From: Tillus elongatus
Lineage: Eukaryota > Arthropoda > Insecta > Coleoptera > Cleridae
Assembly: GCA_964006375.1 (NCBI GenBank)
Contig: OZ023263.1
Span: forward strand, 138,820,173-138,884,172
DNA: 64,000 nucleotides
Direction: 5' to 3'
The notes below the pieces were generated by a model. It was not told where the DNA came from. It saw only the letters and a program-made list of their open reading frames with translations, and searched no databases. Positions within the stretch are counted from its first letter, which is position 1. Each line of letters begins with the position of its first letter. This document shows positions 11,366 through 59,869 of the stretch, piece by piece. A program made the translations under genes and the position numbers.

Positions 11366-12896
<1,531 letters not shown>

Positions 12897-14387
12897 CCTC
12901 CACCGTTAGTCTTGAGCACGTCCTCGTGTTCAACTTGGGGTGATTTCTTCTTCTTTAGGAAGGGTGTCCATCTCTTTCTGGACCAAACCAATATAGTGAT
13001 GATGATGACTACTATTATAAATGTGGTAACACCTATGTGACTTGTATGTAGCATTGGATGTAGTATCTTATGTTGTGGAGCTTCTGAAAGTTGTTGCTTC
13101 AATTTTTCAGCATTTTTCAGGTGAACTGGACTGAAGCGGACTTCGTATTTTTCTTCCTTGACTGGTAATATCAGGTCTGGAATCCACGTTATGTTGCCTG
13201 ATACGTCTGTGTATATCTCATCATTTACTGTGATTTTACAGTTAGGCAATGTGCTTACGATAGCATTTTGGTGTATTGTTTTTCTGTCGATTTTATTTGG
13301 ACATTCTTCTATAACTTCGACTGATACATCTGTTGAGATGAGCACGTTGTTGTTTCGTATCTTGATGGACGTCGTGTAGCTATTGGTTACCTTTGCAGAA
13401 GGGCAACTCGAGGGTTGATTTAGTTGGCAACTTTCTTCTTGTGGTGGATTTGAACACACTATGGCTTCTGTTATTGATGGGCATCTTTCAGATGTCCATA
13501 AGTTTTGTTGGGCTATTTCCAAATAATATGAACTTGGGGGTATAAGGACTTTATGATTTTCTGGTAAGGGAATAATTTGAAAGTAGGAGCCTGGTGTAGG
13601 GTGTAAAATCGGGACCTTTAGTAAACAAATGATTGTGTCTCCTGCTGATACAACTATTAATTTAGTAAATTCAATAATTTTAAATATGTGGTTCCTGTCA
13701 AAGTTAATTAATTCATTTTTGTTATAAATTAATTCAAGATGCTGTCTTATTTGTGTTAAATCCTTCCAGGTAAATATTTCAATGTTTGTAATTTCATTAA
13801 AGCTAAGAGATATAGTTCTTTGAATAATTTTGACACTTTCTAATAAATTTTGGGCTAATGAGATTTGATATTGAATGAAACTCCTTTTTTCCATGTTCGC
13901 TAGTTCACAAAATCTGTCAGCTATCGTCTGAAGATTTTTGTTAATTATTTTTTGTTCTTCTACAAATCTTTCTGTAATTATATGTGCAAATGAATTTAGA
14001 GAGTCTAGTTGAGTCATCATTTCACCTTGATTTAAATATAAGGTGTTTAAATGTTTGTTTATTTTATCGAGATCGTCTTGATCGAGATTTCCGGTTATGG
14101 TTTTGATCAGCGACCCTGCTCCGTTTATTAACCCGCGTTTCGTTCTGGAGTGCGTTAATTTCTCAAGTTCTAGGTTAATTTTGGAAACTTGGTCATTAAG
14201 CATCTGTACATATTCCTTGTTAATAGCAGTGCCATAATTTTCGTTAATTTTTATAGTATTGTTTGTCAACACCCGATAATTATTTTCTAAAACCGATACA
14301 TTAAAATAAAAGTAGAAATTATGATAGTGATTAATTATTCTAGCTATACCTATATAATCTTTAAAGTATCCGTTAGTGATTATGGGT

Positions 14388-17300
14388 TTAACTTCTAGTT
14401 GATGGACCTGGCTGAGGGCCATCATCAGGGGGATGATGTTCCTGCAAAGAAAATGTCTTTTTCACTCTTTTTACATTTTTCAAATGGGCTGTTTTCTTTT
14501 GGGAATCAGGTAAAAGTAATTTGTTTTGATTTACTTGAACTGGATTATGATAAATTTTATATAATGGGTTAGTTTTCTTTACATAAGGTACTTTAATAGC
14601 TACTTGTTCAGTTTGTATTTGCGGTATCTCATTACGATTTTCATTTCTTTTTCTAAGAATAGTTTCTGACTTTTCTTTAGATTTTTTGTATATTTGATCG
14701 AAAAAGGGTAATATTTCTTTAAGTCTTCTATGGTTATATTCTTCATACAATGTTTTGTGGGGGTCTATAGGTTCAAGTTTGTCATAAGGGCCGTAAAGAA
14801 GGGAAAAGGGACTATGACCTGTTAATGAGTGAACTGATTGATTGTATATTAAAATACAGGTTATCATAAGATCAATAGGTTTTTCTAACGGATTCTCCAA
14901 CTTCATTGTTCTTAATTTTTCTAATATAGTTGAGTGAAGTCGTTCAACTGGGGAGTTTGAGTTTGGGTTTTGAGGAGTAGTTATGTGTAATTTTATGTTA
15001 AATAGGTCGCAGTATTCCTTAAGGGTTGCATTATCAAATTCTTTGCCAGAGTCACATACGAGGGTTGAAACGTAATTATGATGAGAGAAATAGTGTCTGA
15101 GTTTGCTTAAAATCGTCAGAGCTGTTGTATCTTTAATGTAATAAGCTTGTGCATATTTACTAAACAAGTCTATTATCGTAAGAAATTTATGGTTCTCAAA
15201 ACTGAACACATCTGCATGAATTACTTCAAAAGGTCTTTTGGCTAACAAGGGTCCGGAAAAGGGTAATTTATAGGGTCGTCGCTCATATTTGGCTTGCAGA
15301 CAAATATCACATTTGTTTATAAAATCATTTATGGATTTTTTCATGTTAGGCCAATAGTAATTTAATTTAAGCTGTTCGTAAGTTTCGTTAATGCCATTGT
15401 GGTTATTTTGGTGGTAATTTTGAATAATTTGTTTCTGTACGGTAGTTGATGTAATATTTTCGACTTGTTTATTGCATTTTATTATTTTTACTGAACTGTT
15501 AAAAAGAGCTGAGGCTACTAACATAAATAATCTCTCGATTTCTTGGGTTTCGAATAAGATACCGTATACATTAGACGGATTGATTTTTTCTTTAAGAAAG
15601 GTGTTAAGTTGTTGTAGTTCATGACCTTCTTGTAAATATATTTTGATTTGTTTATTTTTAAAAAGGTTTGTAGTTATTTCACGTTTTTCCGATCCATGAT
15701 AAATTAAAATTTGATTTTTAAAATGATTGATTGGGCCTTCCGATATAGGTAAGCAAAATACAGGATTTTCTAAAGAAGTATGTTGGGTTTGAGATTCGCT
15801 ATTATTCTGGTCAGGTTGAGGGTCGATTCCTAATTCTATAAGGTCGTTGTCGTCGAGAACTCTTAGTTCTGAAGGGTCTGCGTTGCCTAAAAGGGACACA
15901 AGATCTATATCATCTTCTACCGCATTGATTTCTGTTCTTGAAAGGGCGTCTGCTACAACGTTATCCTTTCCTTTTTTGTACTTTATTTCGTAGTCGAATT
16001 CTTCTAGTTTAAGCCTCCATTTAACTAAACGGGAATTTGGTTCTTTTATCGAAAAAAGCCAAACTAGAGGTTTATGGTCTGTTTCTATAGTAAATTTTCG
16101 TCCGAAAAGATAAGGTCTAAAATGTTTAGTGTTTTCCACTATTGATAGTAATTCCCTTTCAATAGTGCTATAATTTCGTTCAGCTGAATTAAGCGCTCTA
16201 GAGTAAAATGCGATAGGTTTATTGTCTTGAGACAATACGCCTCCTAACGCTATATTACTTGCGTCGGTTGTCAGATGAAATTCTTTATCAAAATTTGGAT
16301 ATGTTAGGACGGGTGAATTTATTATAAGTTCTTTAGCCTGCGAAAATGCATTGACGTATTCTGGATCATTAAAGTTAAGAGTAGAATCTTTCTTTAGACA
16401 TTTTGTGAGGGGATAAACAATTTTGGCAAAGTTTTTTATAAAACGCCTGTAATAGCCAACAAGTCCTAAGAAAGCCTTTATTTGTTTTTGTGTTTTCGGA
16501 ATAGGATAATTTTTTATGCATTCAATTTTGCTTGGATTTGGTTTTACGCCGTCAATTGTGATGACATGGCCTAGAAACTCAACTTCCTTCCTAAGAAACT
16601 CTGATTTATCTAGCTGTACCTTTAAGTTAACATCTTGTAATTTTTGAAATACTTGTTTAATGTGGATAAGGTGTTCCTGAAGGGATTTGGAGAATATTAC
16701 AATGTCGTCCATATAACCAAAGCAGTTTTTGTACAGAAATTCTCTAAAAACGTTATCCATTACGCGTTGGAAGGTTAAGGGCGAACTCCGGAGACCAAAG
16801 GGCATTCTAACGTACTCGTAAAGCCCATTGTTTACGCTAAAGGCTGTTTTCTCAATGCTTTCAGGGGTTAATTCGATCTGATGAAACCCTTGAGCTAAAT
16901 CGAGAGTAGTAAAGTATGTACACTTTCCTAAGTTGTCTAAGATTTCCTCTATTCTAGGTAAGGGATATTTTTCGAGTATCGTTTTTTCGTTGAGTTTCCT
17001 GTAGTCAATGACTAATCGCCATTTTTTCTTTCCAGAGGAATCTAACTTTTTTGGGACAATCCAAACGGGCGAACAAAAAGCAGAGGTAGAGGGCCTAATA
17101 ATTTTATTGTCTAATAATTTTTGAATTTCCTTCTGTATTTCAATTTTTAGGTGATATGGATACCTGTAAGATTTTACATGTATGGGATCATTATCGCGAG
17201 TTCTAATATGATGTTTAATAGCATTTGTAAATGTAAGATCCGTGTTTTCGTGATAAAAAATATTTCGATATTGATGACATAATTTAAATAGTTTTTGTTT

Positions 17301-17990
17301 TTCCTCAGAATTGAGATGGTCAGTTCTCAATTGTTGTCTCACGTCGACTTGAACTGAGTTGGGAAATTTAGGTGTTTCTTCAAAATTTTGGATGGGTTCT
17401 ACTTCAATTTGTTCTGTAAAGTTAATTTCAGCGATTTGTGACTTATTTTTTACTGTACATGGTATAGAACAAAACCCAGATATAGCTTCAGCTATGGATT
17501 CCGGTATATGAACTAATTCATTTTCCATTTCTGGAATTAAAACTGTTCCGTCTTCAATATTTACAGGTATCTGAATATGGGTAGTACAAGTTTGTGAAAA
17601 GGGTTGAAAATTTAGGGGATTTATTTCGAAATAAAAAGGTAATTCAATTTCTCTAAATTTTACTGTTCTTTTTTCATAATCTAGTTTGGTTTTTAATTTT
17701 TTAAAGTCTTCGGAACCTATAAGAGCATCAAACCTCTCATGCCATTTTATTACTCTAAATGAAAATGGAAAATTTATGCCGTATTCTTTTAACAGGGGGT
17801 ATCTGACATTATCATTTCCTTTTGTAATTTTTCCTACAGATTTTACGGAAAAGGGCTTTTTGAAAATGTACTCTGAAAAAAATTCATATGCAGGGCCCGG
17901 ATTTATTATGCTGTCTGAAGCTCCCGTGTCCAGAAGAATTTTCAAATTTAAAGATGGCAGGACCAAAAACGGTAATTTGGGTAGTGTCAT
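14388..17990 (-). CDS. pol: Errantivirus-like Pol polyprotein
   Basis: Domains in order: aspartic protease with LLDTGAS at residue 19-25; reverse transcriptase with FTTLDLAQGFHQ near 358 and YMDD near 426; RNase H with TTDAS near 572 and ETDHKPL near 635; integrase zinc finger H-x4-H...C-x2-C about 858-895; and integrase catalytic D, D, E at about 924, 977 and 1013 with 35 residues between the last two. The first Met is arbitrary because the frame is open about 60 bases further upstream, overlapping the end of gag, so expression by frameshift from gag is likely. All catalytic residues that can be checked are present. Confidence 0.93.
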   Translation of the reverse strand: MTLPKLPFLVLPSLNLKILLDTGASDSIINPGPAYEFFSEYIFKKPFSVKSVGKITKGNDNVRYPLLKEYGINFPFSFRVIKWHERFDALIGSEDFKKLKTKLDYEKRTVKFREIELPFYFEINPLNFQPFSQTCTTHIQIPVNIEDGTVLIPEMENELVHIPESIAEAISGFCSIPCTVKNKSQIAEINFTEQIEVEPIQNFEETPKFPNSVQVDVRQQLRTDHLNSEEKQKLFKLCHQYRNIFYHENTDLTFTNAIKHHIRTRDNDPIHVKSYRYPYHLKIEIQKEIQKLLDNKIIRPSTSAFCSPVWIVPKKLDSSGKKKWRLVIDYRKLNEKTILEKYPLPRIEEILDNLGKCTYFTTLDLAQGFHQIELTPESIEKTAFSVNNGLYEYVRMPFGLRSSPLTFQRVMDNVFREFLYKNCFGYMDDIVIFSKSLQEHLIHIKQVFQKLQDVNLKVQLDKSEFLRKEVEFLGHVITIDGVKPNPSKIECIKNYPIPKTQKQIKAFLGLVGYYRRFIKNFAKIVYPLTKCLKKDSTLNFNDPEYVNAFSQAKELIINSPVLTYPNFDKEFHLTTDASNIALGGVLSQDNKPIAFYSRALNSAERNYSTIERELLSIVENTKHFRPYLFGRKFTIETDHKPLVWLFSIKEPNSRLVKWRLKLEEFDYEIKYKKGKDNVVADALSRTEINAVEDDIDLVSLLGNADPSELRVLDDNDLIELGIDPQPDQNNSESQTQHTSLENPVFCLPISEGPINHFKNQILIYHGSEKREITTNLFKNKQIKIYLQEGHELQQLNTFLKEKINPSNVYGILFETQEIERLFMLVASALFNSSVKIIKCNKQVENITSTTVQKQIIQNYHQNNHNGINETYEQLKLNYYWPNMKKSINDFINKCDICLQAKYERRPYKLPFSGPLLAKRPFEVIHADVFSFENHKFLTIIDLFSKYAQAYYIKDTTALTILSKLRHYFSHHNYVSTLVCDSGKEFDNATLKEYCDLFNIKLHITTPQNPNSNSPVERLHSTILEKLRTMKLENPLEKPIDLMITCILIYNQSVHSLTGHSPFSLLYGPYDKLEPIDPHKTLYEEYNHRRLKEILPFFDQIYKKSKEKSETILRKRNENRNEIPQIQTEQVAIKVPYVKKTNPLYKIYHNPVQVNQNKLLLPDSQKKTAHLKNVKRVKKTFSLQEHHPPDDGPQPGPSTRS

Positions 17991-18004
17991 AATATTGTTT
18001 ATAT

Positions 18005-19114
18005 CTAGGGTGACAAAGGATTTTCCGAGGCTTCTTCCTGAAAATCCAGATTTTCTGGCTCATTTCCGGAATAATCATTAAAGTTTTCGTTTTCGACACA
18101 TTGCAAATAATATTCGGGTTGTAATTCGTCACATACATAATCTGTCATTTCTTGATTCGGATATTCTAAATTACATATTTCCATGGGTGTAGTTTGATCA
18201 AATTGTCGATTTTGTCTTTGTGGGGGTGCCGAAAAAAGTATTTTTTGTTCTGTTAAATACAGATGAATTTTGAGGCGGTTGATGGCGGAAAACTTGACTA
18301 TTTGTCGGAGAAATTTTATTTTGTGGTAGAGCTCTCAAATTGGATATAGGTTTACTGGGGAAATTAGGTCTTTGTCGTAAAAAGGGTGGTTGTTGAAATC
18401 TATTTACGAAATTAATATTTTGTTGAGGTAACGGTCTTTTCGGTAAAGCAATTTTTCTAAAAATGTTAGGGGTTGTTTTTGTGAAGAAGGATGTGATTTA
18501 TTTCTTAAGCTATTTATGAAATCTGCTTGTTTTATTTTGTTATCTATGCGGTGACACTCAAGTAAAGCCGTTTCTAAACTTGTTACATTTACTAGTCTTA
18601 AATGACTAAAATACGGTTCTAGTATGCCGACTTTAAATGATGTTACAGCCATTTCAGTAAAGTAATTTTTCTTATAAATTTTAATTTCGGTACCTAAATC
18701 CTGTAATTCGATATTCTCATAAAGTGCTTTCAATTTTTCTTTAATTTTGCTATGAAATTCTAAAACTGTTTGATTTTTTGTCATATAACAGGTAGTGAGG
18801 TCTGTTAACAAGAGATTTTCAGAGCGTGGGTCTGAATATTGTGCCATAAGGCCATTTTTAATGTTTTCCCATGAACTAGTTTCTAGAGATAATAAAATAT
18901 CTCGAGCATCTTGTACAATTTTTGATTTAATAAATTCGAGTATCATTCTATTGTGATGCTCAGCATTTTGTTCTGTACTCTCTTTTTTGTAATTTATAAT
19001 AAACAGTTCGCATTGTCTAATAAAATAATTTAAATGTCTACAACCTCCACTGTATTCTGGGATCATCATAGATGTCTGAGATAACAAGGAGATGTCGCCT
19101 TTATTATGTGACAT
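18005..19114 (-). pseudogene. gag: Errantivirus-like gag region, coding sense split over three frames
   Basis: The first frame (19114-18404, 236 residues) starts MSHNKGD and looks like an errantivirus capsid protein, which in this group lacks CCHC knuckles. After about 18490 the likely continuation, rich in Asn, Pro, Gln and Arg, is in a second frame. An acidic C-terminal part is in a third frame that ends at a stop at 18005-18007, just inside the upstream extension of pol. The switch lies near an A-rich run about 18470-18485, but it does not fit a classical slippery heptamer in the reading phase. Two damaging indels, or sequencing or assembly errors, are the simplest explanations. Confidence 0.75.
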
Positions 19115-23699: not shown

Positions 23700-24967
23700 C
23701 TTTTTAAAGGAAACAGGTTTTTTGACAGAAAATAATTTTATTTCTCAACATAGTCTCCTTTGAGCTCTATACACTTCGTCCAACGTTTCTCCATTTTTTT
23801 TATCCCTTCCAAAAATAAGATTTGTCGAGGTCCTCAAAATAGGTATTTGTTTGTGAGATGATTCCATGATCGGAGTCAAATCTCTTTCAGTCGAGACATT
23901 TCTTTAAGTTTGGAAACAAGAAATAGTCACGCGGGGCTAAATACGGAGAATAGTGGGGATGGGGGAGCAATTCGTTGCCCAATTTATGCAATTTCGCCAT
24001 GGAGACTACACATGTGTGCACCTTTGCATTGTCTTGGTGGAAAATAACCTTTTTCTTGGCCAAATGCGGTCGTTTTTTCTTCAAATCGTCATTGAATCGG
24101 TCCAATAATTTGGTATAATATTCGCCATTGATTGTTCTTCCCTTTTTGAAGTAATCAATGTGGATTATACCGCGTGCATCTGAAAAAACGGTCGCCATGA
24201 CTTTATTGGCTGAGGAACCCACCTTGGCCTTCTTCGGCGCAGATTCGCACGGAGAGACCCACTGTTTTGACTGCTGCTTGGTCTCTGGTGTGTTGTGGTG
24301 AATCAATGTTTCGTCCGCATTTACGAAACGGCAAAAAAACTCGTCCCTATTGCGGTTGAACAACGCCAAACACTCCTTGGAAGTTGTCACACGATTGTGT
24401 TTGTGGTCGAGTGAGCAAACGCGGTACCCATCTTGCGGATAGCATTCTCACACCCCAGTGATCATGCAAAATCGAAACCAATGAGCCATGTGATATGCCT
24501 ATAGCTTCCACAATCTCCCGCACTTTCAATCTCTGATCGGCCAACACAATATCGTGAATTTTTTAATTTTTTTCGGGTGTAGTAACCTCAACTGGGCGTC
24601 CAGAACGTCCAGCGTCATTTGTGCTTGTACGGCCGCAACGAAATTCAGTAAACCACTTTTTTACCATGGAAATTGATGGTGCAGAGTCCCCATGGTATTT
24701 ATCAAGCTTAGCCTTGGTTTGAGTTATGTTTCTTTTTTTCTGCAAAAAATTATGTTTGATGAGCACACGAAATTAACTTTTTTCCATTTTCGTTATAACT
24801 CAATAGGTTGCCTGCTTTCAATGGCTATCTAATACAAACTAAATGACGCGGCTTGTTCAAAATTTGACAGGAGTCAACTGATAGCTGCTTGTTGACAGGA
24901 GCAGTGTTGCCCTCCCTGTGAAGAGGCGGGAAATTAAAAAAGTCACGGACTTATTGACCCGCCCTCG
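23676..24967 (-). mobile_element. Mariner DNA transposon, full length
   Basis: 1292 bp bounded by TA on each side (23674-23675 and 24968-24969). The ends are inverted: CGAGGGAGGGCAATAAGTCC on the left against CGAGGGCGGGTCAATAAGTC on the reversed right end. The length is normal for mariner. The internal transposase is broken, so it needs help in trans. Confidence 0.9.
23887..24766 (-). pseudogene. Mariner transposase, frameshifted
   Basis: Coding sense passes through three frames (24766-24563, 24547-24347, 24390-23887). The N-terminal part has SISMVKKWFTEFRCGRTSTN and GRSGRPVE. The middle has the WVPRLLT form of the mariner WVPHEL motif. The last part has ADETLIHH (first Asp), IFHQDNAKVHT (second Asp) and HYSPYLAPRDYFLFP, where the catalytic third Asp (APRD) is kept although the usual SPD is SPY. 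At least two indels inactivate it. Confidence 0.88.
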
Positions 24968-28640: not shown

Positions 28641-29249
28641 TAGACGTACCCTGGCGCTCTAGAGAAATACATTTATGATATAACCGAAGGTCATGTTTTT
28701 CATTTACCGATGACCAAACCTTAAATAGCCCATGTTGAAACTTTACAAGTTAATGTCAAAAGTAAACATGATTTGAGTACGGCTTCTTTCATCAGAATGC
28801 ATAGATTTGTTCGGGTGAGAAGCAGTGTTGCCGGGAAGCTCATTATGTTACTTTTCTTTTATTTAATACCCACGGTGCGTTTACATAGGGGCTTCTATGG
28901 CTCAAGATTGAAGATTCTAGCTTAATGGGAAATTTATTGAGCTATCGGATTTGAAATATTTTTACGAAAATTTTCTACCATAACATACTTGCCGCACCCA
29001 GACCCTTTCCAACACTTATTTACGGTTGCTGTGTCCATCATTTTTGAAAATGATAAAATATTGCAGCTTACTATGCAAGACTGACAAACAAGGCAATATC
29101 AAAATCATTTTTGGAAAAATATTTAAAAAAAATTAAATGAGATAACAATTTAAACATAAATTGAAAATCTCGGTTCGCTGCTTCGTTGCGGGGGTTATCC
29201 TTCCCCTTCTGCATGCCAGAATCAGCCTCAATGCATAAACAAGAACCAT
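28641..29249. other. Non-coding spacer with one H relic
   Basis: A weak inverted H terminus lies near 28975-29000 (CCATAACATACTTGCCGC). Otherwise nothing was recognised. Confidence 0.4.
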
Positions 29250-29445
29250 GTAAACAATAAGTGAGTAACGAACGTGTCGCCACCTAGTTCGGAACCAAGT
29301 ACTATGTTGTCACGCCCGCTCCAAATAACACAGAGTATTAAAAATAGAGACGGTATACAACTAACTAACAATTTAAAAAATTGTTAGCCCTGGCCCATTT
29401 CTACCCCAATATAGGGACAAAGTATGTAAGACTAGATGCATTCTC

Positions 29446-29509
29446 GCAACAATTAGAACCGTAGACCGGTTTCGCTCTCATTAGAGCTCTTCAGTACGGC
29501 ATACTAAGC
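29446..29509 (-). ncRNA. Type I hammerhead ribozyme (inverted monomer)
   Basis: On the minus strand the order is stem I (CCGTA with TACGG), CTGAAGA, stem II GCTCT/AGAGC with loop AATG, GAA, palindromic stem III ACCGGT, then C17. The predicted cut is between 29464 and 29463. The outer part of stem I is shortened: this copy has CTTAG where the direct copies have GCAATTAG. Confidence 0.85.
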
Positions 29510-29702
29510 AAAAATGCACCAAAAATAACACGGCTATCGTATAGCCAGTCTTAAAACAGCCAGTTTTAATACTCTGTGTTATTTGGAGCGGGCGTGACAA
29601 CATAGTACTTGGTTCCGAACTAGGTGGCGACACGTTCGCTACTCACTTAGTGTTTTAAGACTGGCTATACGATAGCCGTGTTATTTTTGGTGCATTTTTG
29701 CT

Positions 29703-29768
29703 GCAATTAGTATGCCGTACTGAAGAGCTCTAATGAGAGCGAAACCGGTCTACGGTTCTAATTGTTGC
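29703..29768 (+). ncRNA. Type I hammerhead ribozyme (direct monomer 1)
   Basis: Outer stem I GCAATTAG pairs with CTAATTGTTGC; inner stem I CCGTA pairs with TACGG. The core is CTGAAGA, stem II GCTCT-AATG-AGAGC, GAA, stem III ACCGGT and C17. All invariant core bases are present (position 7 is variable in hammerheads). The cut is predicted after 29750. Stem III has no loop, so the active form is probably a dimer, as described for short-stem-III hammerheads. Confidence 0.9.
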
Positions 29769-30009
29769 GAGAATGCATCTAGTCTTACATACTTTGTCCC
29801 TATATTGGGGTAGAAATGGGCCAGGGCTAACAATTTTTTAAATTGTTAGTTAGTTGTATACCGTCTCTATTTTTAATACTCTGTGTTATTTGGAGCGGGC
29901 GTAACAACATAGTACTTGGTTCCGAACTAGGTGGCGACACGTTCGCTACTCACTTGGTGTTTTAAGACTGGCTATACGATAGCCGTGTTATTTTTGGTGC
30001 ATTTTTGCT

Positions 30010-30075
30010 GCAATTAGTATGCCGTACTGAAGAGCTCTAATGAGAGCGAAACCGGTCTACGGTTCTAATTGTTGC
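30010..30075 (+). ncRNA. Type I hammerhead ribozyme (direct monomer 2)
   Basis: The same sequence and fold as the copy at 29703-29768. The cut is predicted after 30057, exactly 307 nt downstream of the first. A transcript spanning both would release a 307-nt RNA with ends suited to ligation into a circle. Confidence 0.9.
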
Positions 30076-30105
30076 GAGAATGCATCTAGTCTTACACGTA
30101 AACAA

Positions 30106-31515
30106 GAAAAATTCCTTTGGAGCAACCCCTAAGAAAGTTCCGGGACCTGCGGTGAATATAGAGGTTCTGCGCGTGGTAAACAGGATTTTAAGGTGGTATA
30201 GTTGCAAAATGGGATAAAGGTAGCTTAGAGAGGTCAAACTAAGCTGTTTGTTTCACACTTTCCGCTCACATTTCCTTTCTATATTCTTCTCCGCCCAGCA
30301 CCCCCATTCACTCTTGGTTCCACAACTATCTTGTGGGCTGTTTGCAAGAAATTCTTCTTGTGGTAAGCAAATTTATGAAAAGATTTTTCTCAACCCCCCA
30401 TGTGCTAATCTGCAAATTTACCGAAAATTTACTTTTTATTTACAAACGGAATGCATCTATGAAATTATAGGTGGCACGTAAGTATTTTTCCATATAAATC
30501 GCTTGATTGGTCGGTTTCAATCAACTTAATCGAACCAGTTTCTGCAAATATAATAACAAAAAAGGTTTTTTAAAACAAATTTGTAATTATCTGTGAAGCT
30601 CATTGTGTTATTTTTTAAATTTAGTATTCACGCTGCTTTTATATGTTTTACTATGTATCAGAACTGAAGATTCTAGTTTAATGGGAAATTGGGTTATCAC
30701 CATTTGAAATATTTTAATCAAAATTCGCTACCATAACGCACTCTTTTCAACACTTATTTACTATTGCTGTATCCATACTTTTTGAAAATGAAATAAATAT
30801 AAACAAAGCAACATTTTGAAATTAAAATTTTAATAATTTAACCTAAACATCTGTTTATATAATTTTAACTTGGGATGTATGTACTTTGTTATACCTACGT
30901 ATATATTATTAGTACTTACTGTATTAGTTTGAGGTAGGTATATTTCTTATTGAAATAATTTTGGTAATACTATAATCACTTTGGTAATACCTACCAGTGA
31001 ATTCTGTATAGAGTTCATTAGGTAATACATACAATATCTACAATCTACATGCAGTTTACCTATCACTTTCATATTTGTTTAATTGGATGTTACAATCATA
31101 ATATACTACTACATTTATTTGGTTAAAGTTAAGTTAAAATTCAAAGTTGGGTTATTTACTGTTTGTATTAACCTTAGAATATAGGTACCTAGTTGTTTTA
31201 TATTATAAGATCCTAATAATTAGGAATTAGCATCAGCGGAGTCGATTTCGAGGTTATGCGATGCGGAAAGCGTACACGCTTCTCTGTGACAAATAGTTAC
31301 GTGTGGTGAGATTAAACTAGGAGAGAGAGACAGGGAGAGAGAGAGAGAGAGATGGCTTTTAATTTTAAATGCCGTGAACGTGAAGAACGGGGAGATTAAT
31401 ATTTATATATAATGAAACGTCGTTCTATATTGCTTTTAAACAAATTGAATCACTTTCATTCAATTTTTTATTTATTAATATGCATATCCATGATAAAATT
31501 TAGCGCTTTTGAACG
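30106..31515. other. Non-coding stretch with an H relic and GA repeat
   Basis: A truncated inverted H terminus (CGCTACCATAACGCACTC) lies near 30725-30742. A GA-rich tract sits at about 31320-31353. No gene was recognised. Confidence 0.45.
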
Positions 31516-31650
31516 CAAACTTTGTCCGGGTATTTGGAAAGAAATGGTCCAAGGCTGACAATTTACAAAATTGTTAGTTGGTTGTACATTGCACACAGCT
31601 CTATCTATAATATTTTGTGTAAACTAGAGCTATCGTTACAACATACTACC
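31516..31650 (+). repeat. Diverged relic of the ribozyme monomer
   Basis: The order of short shared blocks matches the monomer at 29790-29920: ACTTTGTCC, AGAAATGG, ACAATTT with AAATTGTTAGTT, GTTGTA, then CAACATA and CTGGT. The part that would hold the hammerhead core is missing or unrecognisable. Confidence 0.55.
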
Positions 31651-32094
31651 TGGTCCTGCACCGAGAGGACTTCCCTGTCGTATCTCTGGCAATGTTCTCC
31701 AGGCTGACATCTTGCAATAATTTCCATTGTTTAGATTTTTATCTACGATTTATTTAAATAGGTTAGCAGTACAGATAACGTCATCTGTCTTTGTCCAACA
31801 TTGTAGATATTGCATTACAGAATCTGAAGTGATGCCGAGGATTGTTTTATTATTGATTTCGAATAACTTTATTTTCCTTTGATCAAACGACTTGAAAATT
31901 GGTACACAACCACGCCTGTCCATGTTCTTTTAAGTTGTTAAATAGTTAATTTTCGTTTAATTCGCTTAGAGAATTTGAGAGATATTGCGTTTTAAAAAAG
32001 ATTTTTAAATTTTTTTATTCAGAAAAATTGGCCGTTAACATTTGATGAACGAACTAATCCGAGCTATTATCAAAATAAGGGTAAATTTGGTCCA

Positions 32095-32350
<256 letters not shown>

Positions 32351-33034
32351 AATTTAATTAGCATGACGGAAGCGGGGAAATACTCGTGACCATCATGACA
32401 TTCTAATTAAATAAAAAAAATTCCAGTGACTTTGAAACAGGAAACCATATTTTACTGCGAATGCCAGCGGATAGGCTTTATTAAACATTTGAGCAATTCA
32501 TAGTTAGTGATACTTTTACCTGAGTTAGCTTAAAGCTAGTATCTGCAGCTATTATCGTAATACCGTTTCAATGGTCCATATAAGCACCTACCCAATGGCT
32601 GCAAACGGCGAGTGATTGTGGAGGCAGAAGGAAAAGTATAACATGGTTTTCTTTAGTCAGTTTTACTAGAGCATCTTTATGATATGTGGACTTCATGATT
32701 GTGTATATAAGCATAAGTATTGGCAAATTTTTAGTTGGTTTGCTGAAGCAGATAAAATGTTACATGCATTCAATGAACATTTCACTTGAAATCCACCCTT
32801 AACAGGTGGGTCGAACTTCAGTACCCAAATATACACTTTTAATCATTTAAAATGCACTACTGTGAAGATCATAAGCGGCGGAATTTCATTCCCAACTACA
32901 TTAATTGCACAGCATACGGGCACGAGGTAGCCTCGTTCAGCCGATGTATATTGCCTAATCTGTTATGTACCACTTTTTCATATAATGTTTGTGGGTTGCT
33001 GGATTGATTGTTGTCAGACCTGTTTCGTCCATAT
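32351..33034. other. Non-coding spacer
   Basis: No protein, RNA gene or repeat end was recognised. Confidence 0.45.
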
Positions 33035-33150
33035 TAGTGATTTTTTTAAATTCACCATTGAGTAGATCGCGACTATAAATTTCTTTAAATGAGCGCAAAC
33101 TAGGACCCCCAGAACCCATATCCGGGGTCAGTTTCAATTTTTATATGCTT
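33035..33150 (-). mobile_element. H element 3' end fragment
   Basis: Reversed, it reads CTGACCCCGGATATGGGTTC, GCGCTCATTT and a hairpin-like end. It abuts the foldback that begins near 33160. Confidence 0.7.
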
Positions 33151-33159
33151 ATATACAGT

Positions 33160-34531
<1,372 letters not shown>

Positions 34532-34599: not shown

Positions 34600-37136
34600 G
34601 TACCGGTCATCTGCTGACAACAACGTTGTCCAGCTTTTCGGCTACCTTTCTGAAAAAAACCGACCATCTGATTTCTTAATATCCTTCCTTCGAGGTCACT
34701 CTTCTTGGTGACTTCAATGTCCATAATAAGGAATGGCTAGGATCTTCCAAAACCGATCCACAAGGGAGAGCAGCGGAGGCCTTCGCAGTCAGCAATTCTT
34801 TAGCCAATATGGTTCAGCAACCTACTTACTTTCCTCGCTCAAATCCCTTGGATCTCCTTCTTACTACAAAACCTGTATGCTATAAGACATCAGGCATCGC
34901 CCCCCTTGGTCGCTCAGACCACGGCACGGTCACTGCTTCCTGCGCAATGTAACCCGAGGTCACACAGTAATTACACCCACGTGTCGTTTGGCACTACAAC
35001 TCCGCGAACTGGGACGAAATGCAGGATTACTTTTCCTCATTTCCATGGGCGTCTGTCTGCTTTTCTCATCCTGACCGCTCTGATATCTCACAAAACGTCA
35101 CCGAAATCATCCAAGCTGACAATGGAATTATTTATTCCACGTACACAGAAAAGCTCTTCAGCCACCCAAAAGCCCCGGTTCTCTAAATCCTGTGACAAGG
35201 CCAGACTTGAAAAGGTCAAAGCTCACAAAACGCTTCTACACAATCTCAGTCAAGAAAACCGTCAAGCATTTAACGACGCAAGAAACCGCTATATACGCAT
35301 TCTTTCTGAGGCAAAAAACTCGTTTAATAACCACATTAAAAACAAAGTCCTCTCAAGCTCCAACGGCAGCAAACCCTTCTGGACTCTTGCTAAATCTATT
35401 GGAAATAATTTCTGCAAGACCACGTTCCCACCTCTTGTTTCAGGGGATGAAATTGTTTCTACAGCCCTGGGCAAGGCTGTACTTTTTGCCTCGTTGTTCG
35501 CCGGCAATTCTACTCTCAATTCACCTCCAAATGTTCAACCACCAACAGTCCCCAATGTCGCGCATAAAATGACGGATATTATTTTCAAAACTAAAAAGGT
35601 ACGAAAGATGCTCTCTTCTCTTAATACGAGGAACCCTCTGGCCTTGACGAGATCCCAGCATTTGTTCTCAAAAAATGCGCACCAGAAGTTGCTCCGGTCC
35701 TGATTCGTATATTTCAGACATCTTACAATAGAGGCATATTCGCTAGTTACTGGAAAACTGCTCGAGTACAACCCGTCCCCAAAAAAGGATCCAAAGCGCT
35801 CCCTAGCAACTACAGGCCTATTTCTCTCCTTTCAGTCGTCTCTAAACGAGAGGCAGTATGGATTCCGTCAGCGCAGATCAACTGCCGACCTCCTTTCCTT
35901 TGTCACCCATTCTTGGATCAAGTCTATGGAACTACATGGTGAATCCCAGATTGTCGCTCTAGACATATCCAAAGCATTCGACCAGGTATGGCACGCAGCG
36001 CTGCTTAATAAACTTCCGGCCTATGGCCTACCACCAAAACTCTGTACCTGGACAGCAAATTTTCTCTCTAACCGGAGCATTTCTGTGGTCGTGGGTGGCC
36101 CTTCCTCTAAAATGTATCCAATTAATGCAGGAGTCTCTCAAGGTTCAGCTTAAGTCCCTACTTTGTTTCTTCTCCACATCAATGACCTCTCTAGCACATC
36201 CAACCCAGTTCACACTTACTTGAATGACAGCACCCTCCACTCAAATACACAATATTCTAAGCCTATCTCTTTAGCCCAATTAGATGAGGATCGCAGACTC
36301 ATGGAGGGCTCTGTCTCTGTAGATCTCCAAAAAATATTAGACTGGGGAAGTATAAATCTTGTACAATTCAACTCCACCAAATATGTCTTACTTTCTAACT
36401 TATAAGATATACACCAGCCCTAGACCCATCACAATGAACAACCAAGTTATTCAAAGTAATGAGTCATTTTCAGTTGTTGGCATTTCTGTGGATCGAAATA
36501 TCAATTGGCACCAACATGTCACATCAATTGCAGAAGCGGCTGCTAACAAATTAGGTTTCCTCTTCCGGGCTCGCAAATACTTTTCACCAGATAATCTCTA
36601 TACCTTATATGCTTCACAAATAAGGGAAAACCTCGAATACTGCTCTCACATCTGGGGTGCCGCTGCCGCTTCTACACTTGCTATCCTGGACTCTATTCAG
36701 AAGAGAGATATACGTCTCATCGGTGACCCTACCGTCACCCAGAGGCTGCCATCCTTTGCCCACCGACGTGCCGTTGGTGACACCTCTCTCTCCCCCCCCC
36801 CTCTCTCTCTCTTTTATAGATATCTGCACGGGCACTGCTCAGAGGAGCTTTCTTCCATACTTCCTCCACCTGCTGCCCCCAACAGATCTACCAGGGGAAC
36901 AGAGCGAATGCACCCTTATACTGTCCAGGTCACCAGACATAGAACATCTTGTTATGCCCGTTCTTTTTTCCCGAGGACTTTCAAGTTGTGGAATTCCTTG
37001 CCGGCACATGTTTTTCCTTCTTCTCCGAACCTCCAGAAGGAGTCAAGTACAGAATTGTTGCCTATTTCCTCCTTGTTGACACACACGATACGATAGTATT
37101 TAGGCTGCGAGCCCTCGTAGTGTGTTGTTGAAAAAA
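34600..37136 (+). pseudogene. Jockey/CR1-superfamily LINE with AP endonuclease, unit 1
   Basis: The endonuclease C-terminal half is visible: TLLGDFNVHN near 34700 and LGRSDHGTV near 34903-34930. A linker frame follows (34906-35703), then LDISKAFDQVWHAALLNKLPAYGLP near 35965, a changed catalytic block (THLNDSTLHS-like in place of YADD, about 36215), and thumb frames 36163-36405 and 36359-37096. About 64 bp between VVSK and RQYGFRQ are deleted relative to the LINE at 2668. A unit-specific indel breaks the frame at 35632 (GAGGAACCCTC against GAGGAAAGCCTC). It is dead. Confidence 0.85.
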
Positions 37137-37139
37137 AAT

Positions 37140-37740
37140 TGTTTGCTGTACTTTTCTATGTTACGTGTTATATTTTATTATAAATGTGTACAAATTTTAT
37201 GTAAATTAGTGTATATTGTGTTGATTGTTATCTAGTTTGTATAAATATGTGAATAAATATATGAAATTATACTCTTTTCTTTATTTTATGTGTTATTTGT
37301 TAAGTGTGTTGACAATAAAGGTACGTAACTGGTTATTTTACCCTTTTTATCGGAGAATACATTATTCGACGTTGGGTATATTAAATCTCCCACCTAAATT
37401 ATGACCTACGTCAATTAAATAAGTATGATTATTAGTATATATGTGAAAATTGGTGCCCTCTTACCATATTTATACCTTTTTTTGATGTGATGTTTATGTC
37501 TCAACTGGCTCTATCTCAGGGTCAATTGTAGGGTTCAAAGTCTTTATTGCTGTCTTACACTGTTTTCCTGTTATTTTAACGTTTCATGGGTGAAATTTAG
37601 ACACTTTTAATTCCCTTTTCAGCACAAATATACCAATAAAGAAGATAAACATTGATTTTTCATTTGAAAACAAGGACTCTACTTTATTTTAAATTAAAAA
37701 TTATCACAATTCCTAAAATCTATTAAATTTCTTACAATTT
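37140..37740. other. AT-rich spacer in unit 1
   Basis: Non-coding DNA between two LINEs with no recognised function; it is repeated at 43360-43960. Confidence 0.5.
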
Positions 37741-39627
37741 TGAGCGCGTACTGCGGGGAAGTCAATTACCTGCCTGACGCAGCCAGGCTGGTAAGGGTAC
37801 TCAAACAGGAGGTAGGCAGTAATGTAGGATCCTTAAGGAAACCGGACGGGAGCTGGACAAGCACCACTACGGGGAGAGCACATTAGCTGTGTTCTTCGAT
37901 GTGGAAGGGGCCTTTGATAAGGCAAGGACGGATACGGTTTGTAGCGCCCTACAGAAAAGGGGAACGCCGAGATCCCTAATAAGCGAGCATGCTGGAGGAC
38001 AGGAGAGTTTCGCTGACCTTGGGGGACGGGGCTGGACGTCGGGGTGACGGGCGGCTGCCCTCAGTGCAGTTGCCCTTTGCCCCGTCTATGGTGTTTGGTC
38101 ATGGACGGCCTCTTGGAGCGGCTCTCCGAGAACGGCTTCTACGCCCAGGCGTACGCTGATGATGGGCTGGTCTTAGTCACCGGAAAATTCCTCGGCGTCG
38201 TCTGTGAGTGCATGCAAGCTGCCTGTAGCATAATCGAAAGGTGGTGTGGTGAGCTGGGACTCTCCGTAAACCCGGCGAAGACGGAGATGATCCTATTTAC
38301 CAAGATGTTTGGAAAATCTGCAGCTTTAGGGCAGGAGGTCAAATATCTGGAGGCGATCCTGGACTCCAAACTAACATGGGGGTCGCAAATAGAACGGGTT
38401 GTAAGGAAGGAAGTAGCGACTCTCTAGCAGCTGCGTCGAGTGATAGGGAGGACCTGGGGACTTAATCCTCGGATCCTTCATTGGATCTACACTGCGATCG
38501 TCAGGCCGAGAATCCTCTATGGGGCGTTGGTCTGGTGGTGCGGTGTGAACCAGACTACCAGCAGGAAAGTGGCCAAAGTCCAAAGGCTGGCAATCCTGGG
38601 TATCACAGGCGCTATGAGGACGACACCCTCAGCCGCGCTAGAGGTCCTGTTGATGCTGCCACCGCTTCCCATCTGTGTCAGGAGGGAAGCGATGGCGTCG
38701 CATCTCAGAATGCGAAACGCAGGAAACTGGTGCGGAGAGGGAGCAGTAATAGGGCATGCAAGAGTCGCCAAGGAGGTGGAAAAGGAAATTCCGATTTCCG
38801 CCATAAAGATGCGGAATGCCGAGGATGATATTAGGTTGACTAGGCCATACACCCTTAGGATCCCCAGTAGGGATCAGTGGAGGGAAAATGAGGTTTAATT
38901 CCAGCCCGCAAGCCTGGTCTGTTTCACCGCCGGATCGCGACTGGAGGACCAACAATCCTCCGGGGCAGGAATATACATCGAGGGCCTGGGGTGCGCGAGA
39001 GCTATGCCCTTGGCGCATATACCACGGCATTCGAAACAGAGGTGTACGCTATCCTGTCTGTGGCCAATAGACATGATGTGAAGAGGAGCCCCGATAAACG
39101 TGTGTACATCTGTGCGGACAGCCAGGCAGTCCTCCGGGCAGTCTGCGCGGCCAAAATCAGGTCTATACTGGTTCAGGAGTGCGCTGACGCACTCAGAAGA
39201 CTAGCCAGGACAAAGGAGGTACAACTAGAGTGGGTTCCGGGACACTGTGGCGTGGCGGGGAATGAGGTCGCGAATCATCTCGCAAGGCTTTTCCCGGCGG
39301 CCTTTCTGTGGCCCGGAGCGGGCCATAGGTATAAGTAGGAAGTCGGTCTCCGTCGCCTTAGACAGGTGGACCGAGGAAGCAATGAAGAGGCACTGGGGGT
39401 CAGTTGGTGGCTCCAGGCAGGCGAGGGACTTCGTGGAGGGGCCGGACAGAGATAAAGCTGTCTGGCTACTCGGAAGGACTCGACCTACGCTTCGCCGTAT
39501 CCTTGGGGTGCTTACAGGCCACTGCGCCCTTAGAAGACACCTCACATTGATAGGCGTAGAGAGGGATCCCATTTGCCAGGAATGCGGCGAGGATGAGGAA
39601 ACGTCCTACCACTACCTGTGCGAATGC
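37741..39627 (+). pseudogene. LOA/I-group LINE with RNase H, 3' cut, unit 1
   Basis: RT palm parts: AVFFDVEGAFDKA near 37888, then MTGGCPQ..., AQAYADDGLVLVTGKF near 38150 and LGLSVNPAKTEM near 38260. A thumb-like frame follows (38440-38898). The RNase H domain has TTAFETEVYAIL near 39022, CADSQAVLRAV near 39110 and WVPGHCGVAGNEVANHLAR near 39230. The C-terminal CQECGEDEETSYHYLCEC sits at the end. Stops and frame changes occur before and after the thumb. The 3' end is lost at the duplication junction. RNase H places it in the I/LOA/R1 group; LOA is a guess. Confidence 0.82.
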
Positions 39628-40666
39628 GATATATAGCAAATTTCATTAAAAAAAAGAAGAATTATTTAATATTTAAGAAAGTGTATTTTGTGGCCCTTCC
39701 AATATAGACACCACATAAACTTTTGTATTTATAACGCGATTTCTTAACGATATCTCAAAAGATATAAAATGAAGAAGTCTATAGATACTGTGAAAATTGT
39801 TTGCTATGCAATTCGATCAGTGCCTACTAAAACTCTTTTCACGTGTTACAACTTCAAAAAAAAAGGTTTAGGGGTAGTTTTAGGGAAAAATAAGTACGCC
39901 ATAGGATTCGCCATTCTGTTACCCACCAAATTAAAAAATATATATTATGACAAAGTATGGAAAATTATAAATGCTGTGAGAGATGTTATGTTGGTTTCCT
40001 GACCAAGGCCTACGAATGCAATCTTCTATAGCAAAAATTGGAAAAAATGAGTTAACAACCTTGGTAAGAAGTTCAATAAACTTGTGTGAAATAGTTGACA
40101 ATAGTTATTTTTTCATGAAATGTGGTAGGTAACAGTTTTAAAGATTGACGAATCCAGTGGCGTACTTATTTTTTCCTAAAGCTAACCCTAAACTTTTTAA
40201 TAATTTTTGAGATTCGAAAATAGTTTTAGTAGGCCCTGATCGAATGGCATAAGAAACAATTTTCACAGGATCTATAGACTTCTTCATTTTTTATCTTTTG
40301 AGATATCTTGATAAAATCGAGTTATAAATACAAAAGTTACAGGGGTGTCTATATTAGAAGGGTCACATAAATAAACTACTCTGAAATGGTTAATAATTTC
40401 TATTTTTTTTGGTGAAATTTAGTATATATCTATTTTAAGCGATGTCAAATGTAGTGGCGTACTTATTTTGTTCCTAAAAATGACCCTAGCCCCTTTTCCT
40501 ATTTTTTGACATAGAAAAACTGCATTAGCAGATCTTGGTGAGGTAACATAGAGAACAATTTTCACAGAATTTATAGTTTTTCAATTTATATATTTTGATC
40601 TGTTGTTCTTCAAAATCGAATTATAAATACAAAAGTTATACTGGTGTTTCCATCTTAAACGGGCCA

Positions 40667-40839: not shown

Positions 40840-43358
40840 AACAACGTTGTCCAGCTTTTCGGCTACCTTTCTGAAAAAAACCGACCATCTGATTTCTTAA
40901 TATCCTTCCTTCGAGGTCACTCTTCTTGGTGACTTCAATGTCCATAATAAGGAATGGCTAGGATCTTCCAAAACCGATCCACAAGGGAGAGCAGCGGAGG
41001 CCTTCGCAGTCAGCAATTCTTTAGCCAATATGGTTCAGCAACCTACTTACTTTCCTCGCTCAAATCCCTTGGATCTCCTTCTTACTACAAAACCTGTATG
41101 CTATAAGACATCAGGCATCGCCCCCCTTGGTCGCTCAGACCACGGCACGGTCACTGCTTCCTGCGCAATGTAACCCGAGGTCACACAGTAATTACACCCA
41201 CGTGTCGTTTGGCACTACAACTCCGCGAACTGGGACGAAATGCAGGATTACTTTTCCTCATTTCCATGGGCGTCTGTCTGCTTTTCTCATCCTGACCGCT
41301 CTGATATCTCACAAAACGTCACCGAAATCATCCAAGCTGACAATGGAATTATTTATTCCACGTACACAGAAAAGCTCTTCAGCCACCCAAAAGCCCCGGT
41401 TCTCTAAATCCTGTGACAAGGCCAGACTTGAAAAGGTCAAAGCTCACAAAACGCTTCTACACAATCTCAGTCAAGAAAACCGTCAAGCATTTAACGACGC
41501 AAGAAACCGCTATATACGCATTCTTTCTGAGGCAAAAAACTCGTTTAATAACCACATTAAAAACAAAGTCCTCTCAAGCTCCAACGGCAGCAAACCCTTC
41601 TGGACTCTTGCTAAATCTATTGGAAATAATTTCTGCAAGACCACGTTCCCACCTCTTGTTTCAGAGGATGAAATTGTTTCTACAGCCCTGGGCAAGGCTG
41701 TACTTTTTGCCTCGTTGTTCGCCGGCAATTCTACTCTCAATTCACCTCCAAATGTTCAACCACCAACAGTCCCCAATGTCGCGCATAAAATGACGGATAT
41801 TATTTTCAAAACTAAAAAGGTACGAAAGATGCTCTCTTCTCTTAATACGAGGAAAGCCTCTGGCCTTGACGAGATCCCAGCATTTGTTCTCAAAAAATGC
41901 GCACCAGAAGTTGCTCCGGTCCTGATTCGTATATTTCAGACATCTTACAATAGAGGCATATTCGCTAGTTACTGGAAAACTGCTCGAGTACAACCCGTCC
42001 CCAAAAAAGGATCCAAAGCGCTCCCTAGCAACTACAGGCCTATTTCTCTCCTTTCAGTCGTCTCTAAACGACAGGCAGTATGGATTCCGTCAGCGCAGAT
42101 CAACTGCCGACCTCCTTTCCTTTGTCACCCATTCTTGGATCAAGTCTATGGAACTACATGGTGAATCCCAGATTGTCGCTCTAGACATATCCAAAGCATT
42201 CGACCAGGTATGGCACGCAGCGCTGCTTAATAAACTTCCGGCCTATGGCCTACCACCAAAACTCTGTACCTGGACAGCAAATTTTCTCTCTAACCGGAGC
42301 ATTTCTGTGGTCGTGGGTGGCCCTTCCTCTAAAATGTATCCAATTAATGCAGGAGTCTCTCAAGGTTCAGCTTAAGTCCCTACTTTGTTTCTTCTCCACA
42401 TCAATGACCTCTCTAGCACATCCAACCCAGTTCACACTTACTTGAATGACAGCACCCTCCACTCAAATACACAATATTCTAAGCCTATCTCTTTAGCCCA
42501 ATTAGATGAGGATCGCAGACTCATGGAGGGCTCTGTCTCTGTAGATCTCCAAAAAATATTAGACTGGGGAAGTATAAATCTTGTACAATTCAACTCCACC
42601 AAATATGTCTTACTTTCTAACTTATAAGATATACACCAGCCCTAGACCCATCACAATGAACAACCAAGTTATTCAAAGTAATGAGTCATTTTCAGTTGTT
42701 GGCATTTCTGTGGATCGAAATATCAATTGGCACCAACATGTCACATCAATTGCAGAAGCGGCTGCTAACAAATTAGGTTTCCTCTTCCGGGCTCGCAAAT
42801 ACTTTTCACCAGATAATCTCTATACCTTATATGCTTCACAAATAAGGGAAAACCTCGAATACTGCTCTCACATCTGGGGTGCCGCTGCCGCTTCTACACT
42901 TGCTATCCTGGACTCTATTCAGAAGAGAGATATACGTCTCATCGGTGACCCTACCGTCACCCAGAGGCTGCCATCCTTTGCCCACCGACGTGCCGTTGGT
43001 GACACCTCTCTCTCCCCCCCTCTCTCTCTCTTTTATAGATATCTGCACGGGCACTGCTCAGAGGAGCTTTCTTCCATACTTCCTCCACCTGCTGCCCCCA
43101 ACAGATCTACCAGGGGAACAGAGCGAATGCACCCTTATACTGTCCAGGTCACCAGACATAGAACATCTTGTTATGCCCGTTCTTTTTTCCCGAGGACTTT
43201 CAAGTTGTGGAATTCCTTGCCGGCACATGTTTTTCCTTCTTCTCCGAACCTCCAGAAGGAGTCAAGTACAGAATTGTTGCCTATTTCCTCCTTGTTGACA
43301 CACACGATACGATAGTATTTAGGCTGCGAGCCCTCGTAGTGTGTTGTTGAAAAAAAAT
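40840..43358 (+). pseudogene. Jockey/CR1-superfamily LINE with AP endonuclease, unit 2
   Basis: The same element as in unit 1. Here the frame 41127-42164 remains open through RKASGLDEIPAF and NYRPISLLSVVSK before shifting at the ~64-bp deletion, so unit 2 is the less damaged copy. The RT palm continues at 42148-42375 and the thumb at 42581-43315. The catalytic YADD is again changed. It ends in a TTGTTGAAAAAAAATTG context without a long A tail. Confidence 0.85.
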
Positions 43359-43359
43359 T

Positions 43360-43960
43360 GTTTGCTGTACTTTTCTATGTTACGTGTTATATTTTATTAT
43401 AAATGTGTACAAATTTTATGTAAATTAGTGTATATTGTGTTGATTGTTATCTAGTTTGTATAAATATGTGAATAAATATATGAAATTATACTCTTTTCTT
43501 TATTTTATGTGTTATTTGTTAAGTGTGTTGACAATAAAGGTACGTAACTGGTTATTTTACCCTTTTTATCGGAGAATACATTATTCGACGTTGGGTATAT
43601 TAAATCTCCCACCTAAATTATGACCTACGTCAATTAAATAAGTATGATTATTAGTATATATGTGAAAATTGGTGCCCTCTTACCATATTTATACCTTTTT
43701 TTGATGTGATGTTTATGTCTCAACTGGCTCTATCTCAGGGTCAATTGTAGGGTTCAAAGTCTTTATTGCTGTCTTACACTGTTTTCCTGTTATTTTAACG
43801 TTTCATGGGTGAAATTTAGACACTTTTAATTCCCTTTTCAGCACAAATATACCGATAAAGAAGATAAACATTGATTTTTCATTTGAAAACAAGGACTCTA
43901 ACTTTATTTTAAATTAAAAATTATCACAATTCCTAAAATCTATTAAATTTCTTACAATTT
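43360..43960. other. AT-rich spacer in unit 2
   Basis: Matches 37140-37740 with one base substitution and a one-base indel noted (ACCGATAAAG for ACCAATAAAG; AACTTTATT for ACTTTATT). No gene. Confidence 0.5.
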
Positions 43961-56312: not shown

Positions 56313-56430
56313 GCGAACAGATATTCCACGTTGAAAAAACCGATTCTCGTGCGATCACGGAAGTTAAGCAACTTCGGGCATGGTCAGTGTCTGGATGGGT
56401 GACAGTTTGTTAACAGCGTGTGCTGTTGCC
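56313..56430 (+). rRNA. 5S rRNA-like sequence (diverged copy)
   Basis: 118 nt aligns over its full length with animal 5S rRNA: CCACGTTGAA, TTCTCGTGCGATCACGGAAG, TTAAGCAACTTCGGGCATGG and GGATGGGTGACAG. The internal Pol III promoter (A box and C box) is largely kept and six T residues follow at 56431-56436. Several stem positions differ (GTGCGATCACGG for GTCCGATCACCG), so it is probably a pseudogene or the head of a 5S-derived SINE; no SINE body was proved. Confidence 0.8.
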
Positions 56431-56489
56431 TTTTTTAGGTAGTGACATTTCTGTTTTGTTCTTATTAGCGAGTTTTTTTAAGTGGTTTT

Positions 56490-56745: not shown

Positions 56746-56891
56746 TTTTTTAATAAATATATACGGAAACTAAAAATAGAATCTGAATAGTCCAGAACTT
56801 TCTGCTTATCTCTTAAAGTTGTTTAACTAATGCCGGTATTAAAGTACATATAGAAGTGTAAAAATAGTATCAGAGTTAATTTTACTTCCAG

Positions 56892-57177: not shown

Positions 57178-57257
<80 letters not shown>

Positions 57258-57724: not shown

Positions 57725-57729
57725 CCCTT

Positions 57730-59485: not shown

Positions 59486-59869
<384 letters not shown>

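Follow-up and report, generated by a model that had tools for sequence, protein, structure and literature searches.

A retrozyme-like insertion with one inverted hammerhead unit in the beetle Tillus elongatus

Animal retrozymes encode no enzymes, and the machinery that moves them is an open question. Autonomous Penelope-like elements are described as a strong candidate mobilizer because both kinds of element have a type I hammerhead and a tandem arrangement and are found together (PMC7229834). The same source describes amphibian repeats whose hammerheads have a weak, palindromic helix III and act as dimers, and dimeric constructs of the axolotl HHR_Amex1 ribozyme cut better. Palindromic ribozymes of Aedes and Nematostella did not cleave in the assays reported in PMC3088659. 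Bdelloid rotifer Penelope insertions include an inverted pseudo-LTR beside direct ones, with duplications of 9, 10, or 8 bp; among inverted arrangements, head-to-head is called the commonest, and a foreign gene is carried in one such case (PMC3846280). Other rotifer copies described there have direct units only or lack a duplication. The rotifer authors attribute the inverted units to an antisense template on which self-priming took place, and not to two-strand priming (PMC3846280). A purified Penelope-like protein from an anole cleaves each of the two target strands and extends them, beginning at an internal site of the RNA that lies downstream of the hammerhead cut (PMC11167929). Ribozyme mutants inserted normally in that system, and its main substrate was the unprocessed RNA (PMC11167929). 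Here, we describe an 840-bp block in a 64,000-nucleotide stretch of the Tillus elongatus genome (the window). Judged by its parts, the block is likely a retrozyme, that is, an element of an already known type.

Anatomy of the insertion

The block (29258–30097) consists of three copies of a 307-bp unit, one on the minus strand followed by a plus-strand, head-to-tail run of 1.74 units. It has the following features.

29250–29257: left flanking direct repeat, GTAAACAA, a putative target-site duplication with the same 8 nt at both ends
29258–29558, minus strand: inverted unit of 301 nt, from unit position 92 round to 90 (306 of 307 positions), with a 5-nt deletion
29559–29563: junction filler GCCAG that joins the inverted and direct parts; CCAG replaces the CTAT of the other two units
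29564–30096, plus strand: direct part of 533 nt (1.74 units), starting at unit position 5 and ending at position 230 of the following turn
29827–29849, plus strand: internal hairpin CTAACAATTTTTTAAATTGTTAG, a version of which is retained in a diverged unit at 31516
30098–30105: right flanking direct repeat, GTAAACAA, preceded by one extra base, C at 30097

An initial sequence-only reading had placed three hammerhead ribozymes in an array of ~307-bp monomers at 29258–30097, which is exactly the interval between the two 8-nt flanking repeats. The three ribozymes and the 307-nt spacing of the two direct copies hold. The array is not all tandem, since one unit is inverted and 1.74 are direct. The direct copies overlap by 226 nt at the 307-nt spacing and are 99% identical, differing at 2 of 226 positions. 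The inverted and first direct copies can be compared over 306 unit positions and are separated by one substitution and the 5-nt deletion. Two further differences between them are filler bases (CCAG differs at 2 of 4 bases from the CTAT of the second direct unit and the inverted unit), and at these the inverted copy agrees with the second direct copy. Such near-identity would look like the outcome expected of one template whose copies were inserted together and have been little altered since.

The presence of GTAAACAA at both ends makes the block look like one insertion. The frequency of such a repeat by chance was estimated from random pairs of 22-nt stretches of the window, 136 of 20,000 of which shared at least 8 nt; the tested flanks were 23 nt. 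The 8-bp duplication is thus unlikely to be chance, yet some doubt remains. The 64-kb window yielded no independent empty site, and the array is absent from the 33 rows that Tandem Repeats Finder gave for it. The GC content is 41% for the unit and 42% for the insertion. The longest stop-free run in the insertion is 53 codons, and it has no open reading frame of at least 110 amino acids. A search for Pol III promoter boxes found no plus-strand A box, and every B box candidate had at least three mismatches. Neither poly(A) nor a simple-repeat tail is present at the right end of the insertion.

The insertion lies between two stretches, at ~28825–29090 and 30590–30800, that look alike by eye and may be copies of one older repeat. 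Both contain GAAGATTCTAG and TTAATGGGAAATT.

Hammerhead cores and predicted folds

Each copy of the unit carries one hammerhead, and the two direct copies delimit a candidate circular RNA.

29442–29512, minus strand: hammerhead ribozyme of the inverted copy, HH9 score 25.8 bits, outer stem I 5 nt shorter, C17 at 29464
29702–29772, plus strand: hammerhead ribozyme 1, type I, HH9 score 30.4 bits, descriptor match, predicted cut after C17 at 29750
30009–30079, plus strand: hammerhead ribozyme 2, type I, HH9 score 30.4 bits, descriptor match, predicted cut after C17 at 30057
29751–30057, plus strand: predicted 307-nt excised unit (candidate circular RNA), the distance between both predicted cuts

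A full hammerhead core had been claimed for every monomer, and a strict type I descriptor, composed after the motif was seen, matches all three copies. Applied to both strands of the window, it matched only at 29720 (plus), 30027 (plus), and 29494 (minus), and it had 0 matches in 60 simulated 64-kb sequences with matched base-neighbor frequencies. The three matches are copies of one sequence and therefore count as one event. With the looser pattern CTGANGA plus GAAA there were 4 matches (1.81 expected), a number reached in 12 of 100 shuffles, and the loose core by itself is therefore not significant. The fourth loose match, at 30664, was ruled out by the full descriptor. Stem I (CCGTA/TACGG plus CAATTAG/CTAATTG), stem II (GCTCT/AGAGC), and stem III (ACCGGT) were confirmed as originally given. 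The plus-strand copies keep an intact core, C17, a stem I of 5 + 7 bp around an internal loop, and a stem II of 5 bp, and the predicted cuts after 29750 and 30057 lie 307 nt apart, as had been proposed.

HH9 is an Rfam family of amniote-type hammerheads. A search of the whole window with this model returned 30.4, 30.4, and 25.8 bits (E 0.0014, 0.0014, and 0.04), all below the HH9 gathering score of 52; the E value of the inverted copy was 0.00071 when a small region was searched. At gathering scores, Rfam listed only 5S rRNA and tRNA in the window and no hammerhead. A sub-threshold covariance score is the result that the sequence-only reading had named as refuting it, and formally this is the result obtained (30.4 and 25.8 bits versus 52). 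HH9 is one narrow hammerhead family, so the score alone was not taken as a refutation, though it speaks against the claim. An Rfam MIR821 match at 29500–29709 (55.2 bits versus a gathering score of 249) reflects the inverted repeat and is no microRNA. The ribozyme and hairpin patterns had 0 matches in prokaryote and viral contig collections, both of which are without animal genomes, making this result uninformative for animals. A start codon in stem-loop II at 29733 opens a 26-codon frame (29733–29810) that spans the ribozyme cut; it is similar to the start codons of Penelope pseudo-LTRs but may be chance.

Stem III, ACCGGU, is loopless and a perfect, self-complementary palindrome, and two ribozymes therefore probably pair together. 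The lone ribozyme is predicted to adopt an alternative structure (−22.7 versus −10.7 kcal/mol). In the lone ribozyme, the predicted probability of the A15.1–U16.1 pair is 4e-7, and stem III hardly ever forms. The minimum-energy fold of the dimer contains no double hammerhead either. The earlier idea of dimers thus agrees with the misformed stem III of the lone fold and with the self-complementary ACCGGU, but not with the minimum-energy fold of the dimer. Dimer action is a founded suggestion whose one foundation is the palindrome. The predicted 307-nt circle has a folding energy of −103.7 kcal/mol with 71% of its bases paired; 100 mononucleotide shuffles, a weak control, average −71.0 kcal/mol and 63% (z −6.8). 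The ribozyme core is mispaired in this predicted circle. A read-through transcript is predicted to form a hairpin with 256-nt arms that buries the first plus-strand ribozyme.

Origin of the insertion and its neighborhood

The inverted unit head to head with direct ones, the 8-bp duplication, and the 3' end past the cut together resemble a published layout of Penelope-like insertions. The right end of the insertion lies 39 nt beyond the ribozyme cut, which argues that the template was not a ribozyme-cut linear monomer but a circle or an uncut multimer. Running from position 92 round to 90, the inverted part comes within one base of a full turn of the unit, a closeness with a chance of ~1% under uniform length by our own estimate for a feature that was looked for afterwards. 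Unit positions 92–96 match the target beside the left junction and position 91 mismatches, giving agreement at 5 of 6 target bases. In the literature searched, retrozymes were not found mentioned together with a head-to-head arrangement; some papers do mention retrozymes along with target site duplications and inversion, and the layout is therefore not claimed as unpublished.

Two further features of the window, and a motif beside one of them, bear on origin. The inverted unit, the 8-bp duplication, the Penelope-like remnant, and the diverged unit, which the initial reading left uninterpreted, are the most informative about how the element moved.

31516–31654, plus strand: diverged partial relative of the unit, 73% identity, from unit position 229 (E 3.5e-17), ribozyme unrecognizable
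58482–59518, minus strand: decayed Penelope-like element with an RT fragment and a GIY-YIG endonuclease in shifted frames, outside the insertion and 28 kb away
~58145–58100, minus strand: hammerhead-like motif beside the remnant, downstream of its ORF, found by eye; its stem II position holds a start codon (58131)

The diverged unit starts at position 229, adjoining the boundary where the direct array ends (230). The possibility that it is a complete monomer with a decayed hammerhead was rejected. A local alignment spanned the unit, but its second half was matched by 332 of 500 shuffles, and because this half is no better than shuffles only the first half was retained. Rfam found no hammerhead in 30100–34000 at E values up to 5. 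The Penelope-like remnant matches RVT_1 (E 9.2e-5) and GIY-YIG (E 4.3e-4), both below the curated cut-offs. Its endonuclease part has three homologues among 127 candidates, and two of the three exceed the GIY-YIG cut-off. No common sequence was found between the 307-nt unit and the remnant. In the motif beside the remnant, C17 is the 27th base from the start codon, which is near the 26 bp of the anole element (PMC11167929). The core of this motif is off consensus and Rfam found no hammerhead in 56000–62500 at E values up to 5, so the motif is weak.

The window also contains a Gypsy-type RT/RNase H/integrase ORF of 1223 amino acids (12866–18059, minus strand). A 531-amino acid ORF in the same interval and on the same strand, which we take to resemble insect errantivirus envelope proteins, has no Pfam match at E values up to 0.01. 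A LINE-type ORF segment occurs twice, at 34804–39636 and 41025–45895, ~6.2 kb apart; the listed translations are nearly identical, and the pair represents either a recent duplication or an assembly duplication. A mariner-type transposase remnant lies at 23887–24447 on the minus strand (Pfam Transposase_1, E 4.9e-21). A 5S rRNA-like sequence at 56313–56431 (Rfam 50.5 bits, above the gathering score) is possibly a pseudogene or part of a SINE, and a possible exon of a RhoGEF-type host gene was noted by eye at ~56890–57010 on the plus strand.

We put at roughly two in three the probability that the block is a single metazoan non-LTR retrozyme insertion whose RNA was cut as a dimer and circularized and was most likely inserted by a Penelope-type RT/endonuclease. 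The anatomy, the flanking duplication, the near-identity of the copies, and the fit to the published retrozyme description and Penelope layout are observed; we infer cleavage, dimer action, circularization, and the inserting machinery. The layout and the nearby remnant, and not shared sequence, suggest the link to Penelope machinery. Self-cleavage after C17 is predicted for transcripts of the direct units, with two ribozymes pairing ACCGGU with ACCGGU and cutting as a dimer. A host ligase would then close the unit into a circle that would become the template for reverse transcription. A Penelope-type RT/endonuclease would nick both target strands with an 8-nt stagger. One nicked strand would prime the direct part from unit position 230, and the other would prime the inverted part from position 90. 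A tentative extension, possible but with the odds against it, is that the block preserves a snapshot of Penelope machinery at work on a circular retrozyme template; the inverted part would then be a copy that was primed from the top strand of the target, ran one turn, and stopped at its own start. The broken state of the remnant and its lack of sequence in common with the unit, the sub-threshold HH9 scores, and the predicted misfolding of the lone ribozyme and the circle weigh against a Penelope-inserted retrozyme. The failure of the Aedes and Nematostella ribozymes to cleave (PMC3088659), the rotifer account by self-priming (PMC3846280), the read-through hairpin, and the lack of an independent empty site in the window count against it too. 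The anole system disagrees with this reading in four respects, namely start sites that are alike on both strands, a start site without homology to the cut DNA, normal insertion of ribozyme mutants, and unprocessed RNA as the main substrate (PMC11167929).

The inverted part could have other sources within a retrozyme origin. LINE-type twin priming, with a LINE and not a Penelope-like element as the mover, yields copies that are truncated and inverted and come with duplications of the target (PMC2837659); further RT fragments lie in the window, and 5 of 6 target bases by the left junction match the unit. We consider it unlikely: the right end carries neither a poly(A) nor a simple-repeat tail, the inverted part equals one unit within a base, and one inverted unit with direct units is a published Penelope layout (PMC3846280). 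An improbable explanation in our estimate is self-priming, in which the cDNA folded back and copied itself; the machinery may then still be of the Penelope type, without two-strand priming. The published cases are palindromic at the inverted junction, whereas a 5-nt filler separates unit positions 92 and 5 here, although self-priming is the rotifer paper's own account of head-to-head inverted repeats (PMC3846280) and the inverted part does mirror the direct part about one center.

The remaining explanations concern what the units are. It is quite unlikely that they are solo pseudo-LTRs, derived from a Penelope-like element whose ORF is missing, and represent no separate retrozyme family. The layout and duplication are as in the rotifer Penelope insertions; in one rotifer element, 12 codons at the start of the ORF lie within the pseudo-LTR, or 22 if the tail is included (PMC3846280). 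The start codon in stem-loop II (29733, and 30040 in the second copy) opens a 26-codon frame, with the array ending 57 nt past the first base of this codon. However, an ATG within 14 nt is unremarkable (~1 in 6 by our own estimate), the unit has no similarity to the Penelope remnant of the window, and the minimal hammerheads of Penelope (PMC7761336) differ from the one here with its long stem I and internal loop. A fragment of satellite DNA with an embedded hammerhead, moved by DNA recombination and not by retrotransposition, would explain the head-to-tail repeats, and insect satellite hammerheads are known (PMC2837043). With just ~2.7 units, an 8-bp duplication at the bounds, one unit inverted, and filler at the joint, this origin is very unlikely. 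The idea that the hammerheads are dead relics at a locus that makes nothing is compatible with any of the other readings. Each of the three copies retains the core positions that the descriptor demands, which makes this idea doubtful; the predicted misfolding, the low Rfam score, and the inverted unit, which is likely to trap or silence transcripts, speak for it.

A retrozyme in a Penelope-like layout would provide a structural signature countable in any genome, and would so make the question of the mobilizing machinery directly testable. If the same layout were found genome-wide, the machinery that moves animal retrozymes would be identified and the circle itself would be shown to be the template.

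Comparison with known systems

The proposed retrozyme was compared with the Penelope systems that its layout resembles. Penelope-like elements carry an RT and GIY-YIG ORF, whereas 29258–30097 has none. According to PMC7761336, Penelope hammerheads are minimal and lack helix III or loop contacts. The ribozyme here differs in its long stem I, internal loop, and 5-bp stem II, although its stem III is loopless. The start sites in the anole system are alike on both strands (PMC11167929), and the corresponding sites here would be unit positions 230 and 90. The anole start site is non-homologous to the cut DNA (PMC11167929), whereas 5 of 6 bases match at one start here.

Metazoan non-LTR retrozymes, as described in PMC7229834, are a close match. 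They have a type I hammerhead in each unit, as does the block, although its hammerheads fall below the HH9 gathering score. Their tandem units span 150–450 bp with a GC content below 50% (PMC7229834), and the unit here is 307 bp in 1.74 direct units with a GC content of 41%. They are non-autonomous and encode no enzyme (PMC7229834), and the insertion likewise lacks coding capacity. Their target duplications, when present, exceed 4 bp (PMC7229834), compared with the 8 bp of GTAAACAA. They are present in many genomic copies; in the window, the further copy is the diverged partial unit at 31516. Their predicted circles are highly paired, as is the 307-nt candidate circle; most, but not all, of them leave the hammerhead free (PMC7229834), and the predicted circle here does not. 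The unit that lies inverted and head to head here is a difference; the words inverted and orientation are absent from the main text of PMC7229834, and the likeness to these elements is by description and not by sequence. The initial view of the block as retrozyme-like thus stands for the tested sequence features, which fit, and is weakened by the sub-threshold HH9 scores and by the core that misfolds in the predicted circle.

Stem III has several described counterparts. In the axolotl HHR_Amex1 repeats, helix III is very weak, with a single closing pair and a tetraloop that is palindromic (PMC7229834), and the stem III here is comparable. The axolotl units are 330 bp and account for ~60,000 motifs (PMC7229834); the unit here is 307 bp. 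The repeat-type hammerheads of Aedes and Nematostella have a palindromic stem III/loop III that is proposed to dimerize (PMC3088659), resembling the stem III here. The proposed Aedes dimer stem is 10 bp (PMC3088659) versus 6 bp in this unit, and the two are likened by description and not by sequence.

The pDo500 satellite DNA of Dolichopoda crickets is, like the block, an insect tandem repeat with a hammerhead, for which single and double forms have been proposed (PMC2837043). Its repeats are ~500 bp and make up ~5% of one genome (PMC2837043), compared with ~2.7 units of 307 bp here. Satellites of the pDo500 type form long head-to-tail arrays, a feature that the 1.74 direct units do not share. 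The proposed double form of pDo500 keeps stem III within one strand (PMC2837043), whereas in the dimer proposed here stem III would join two.
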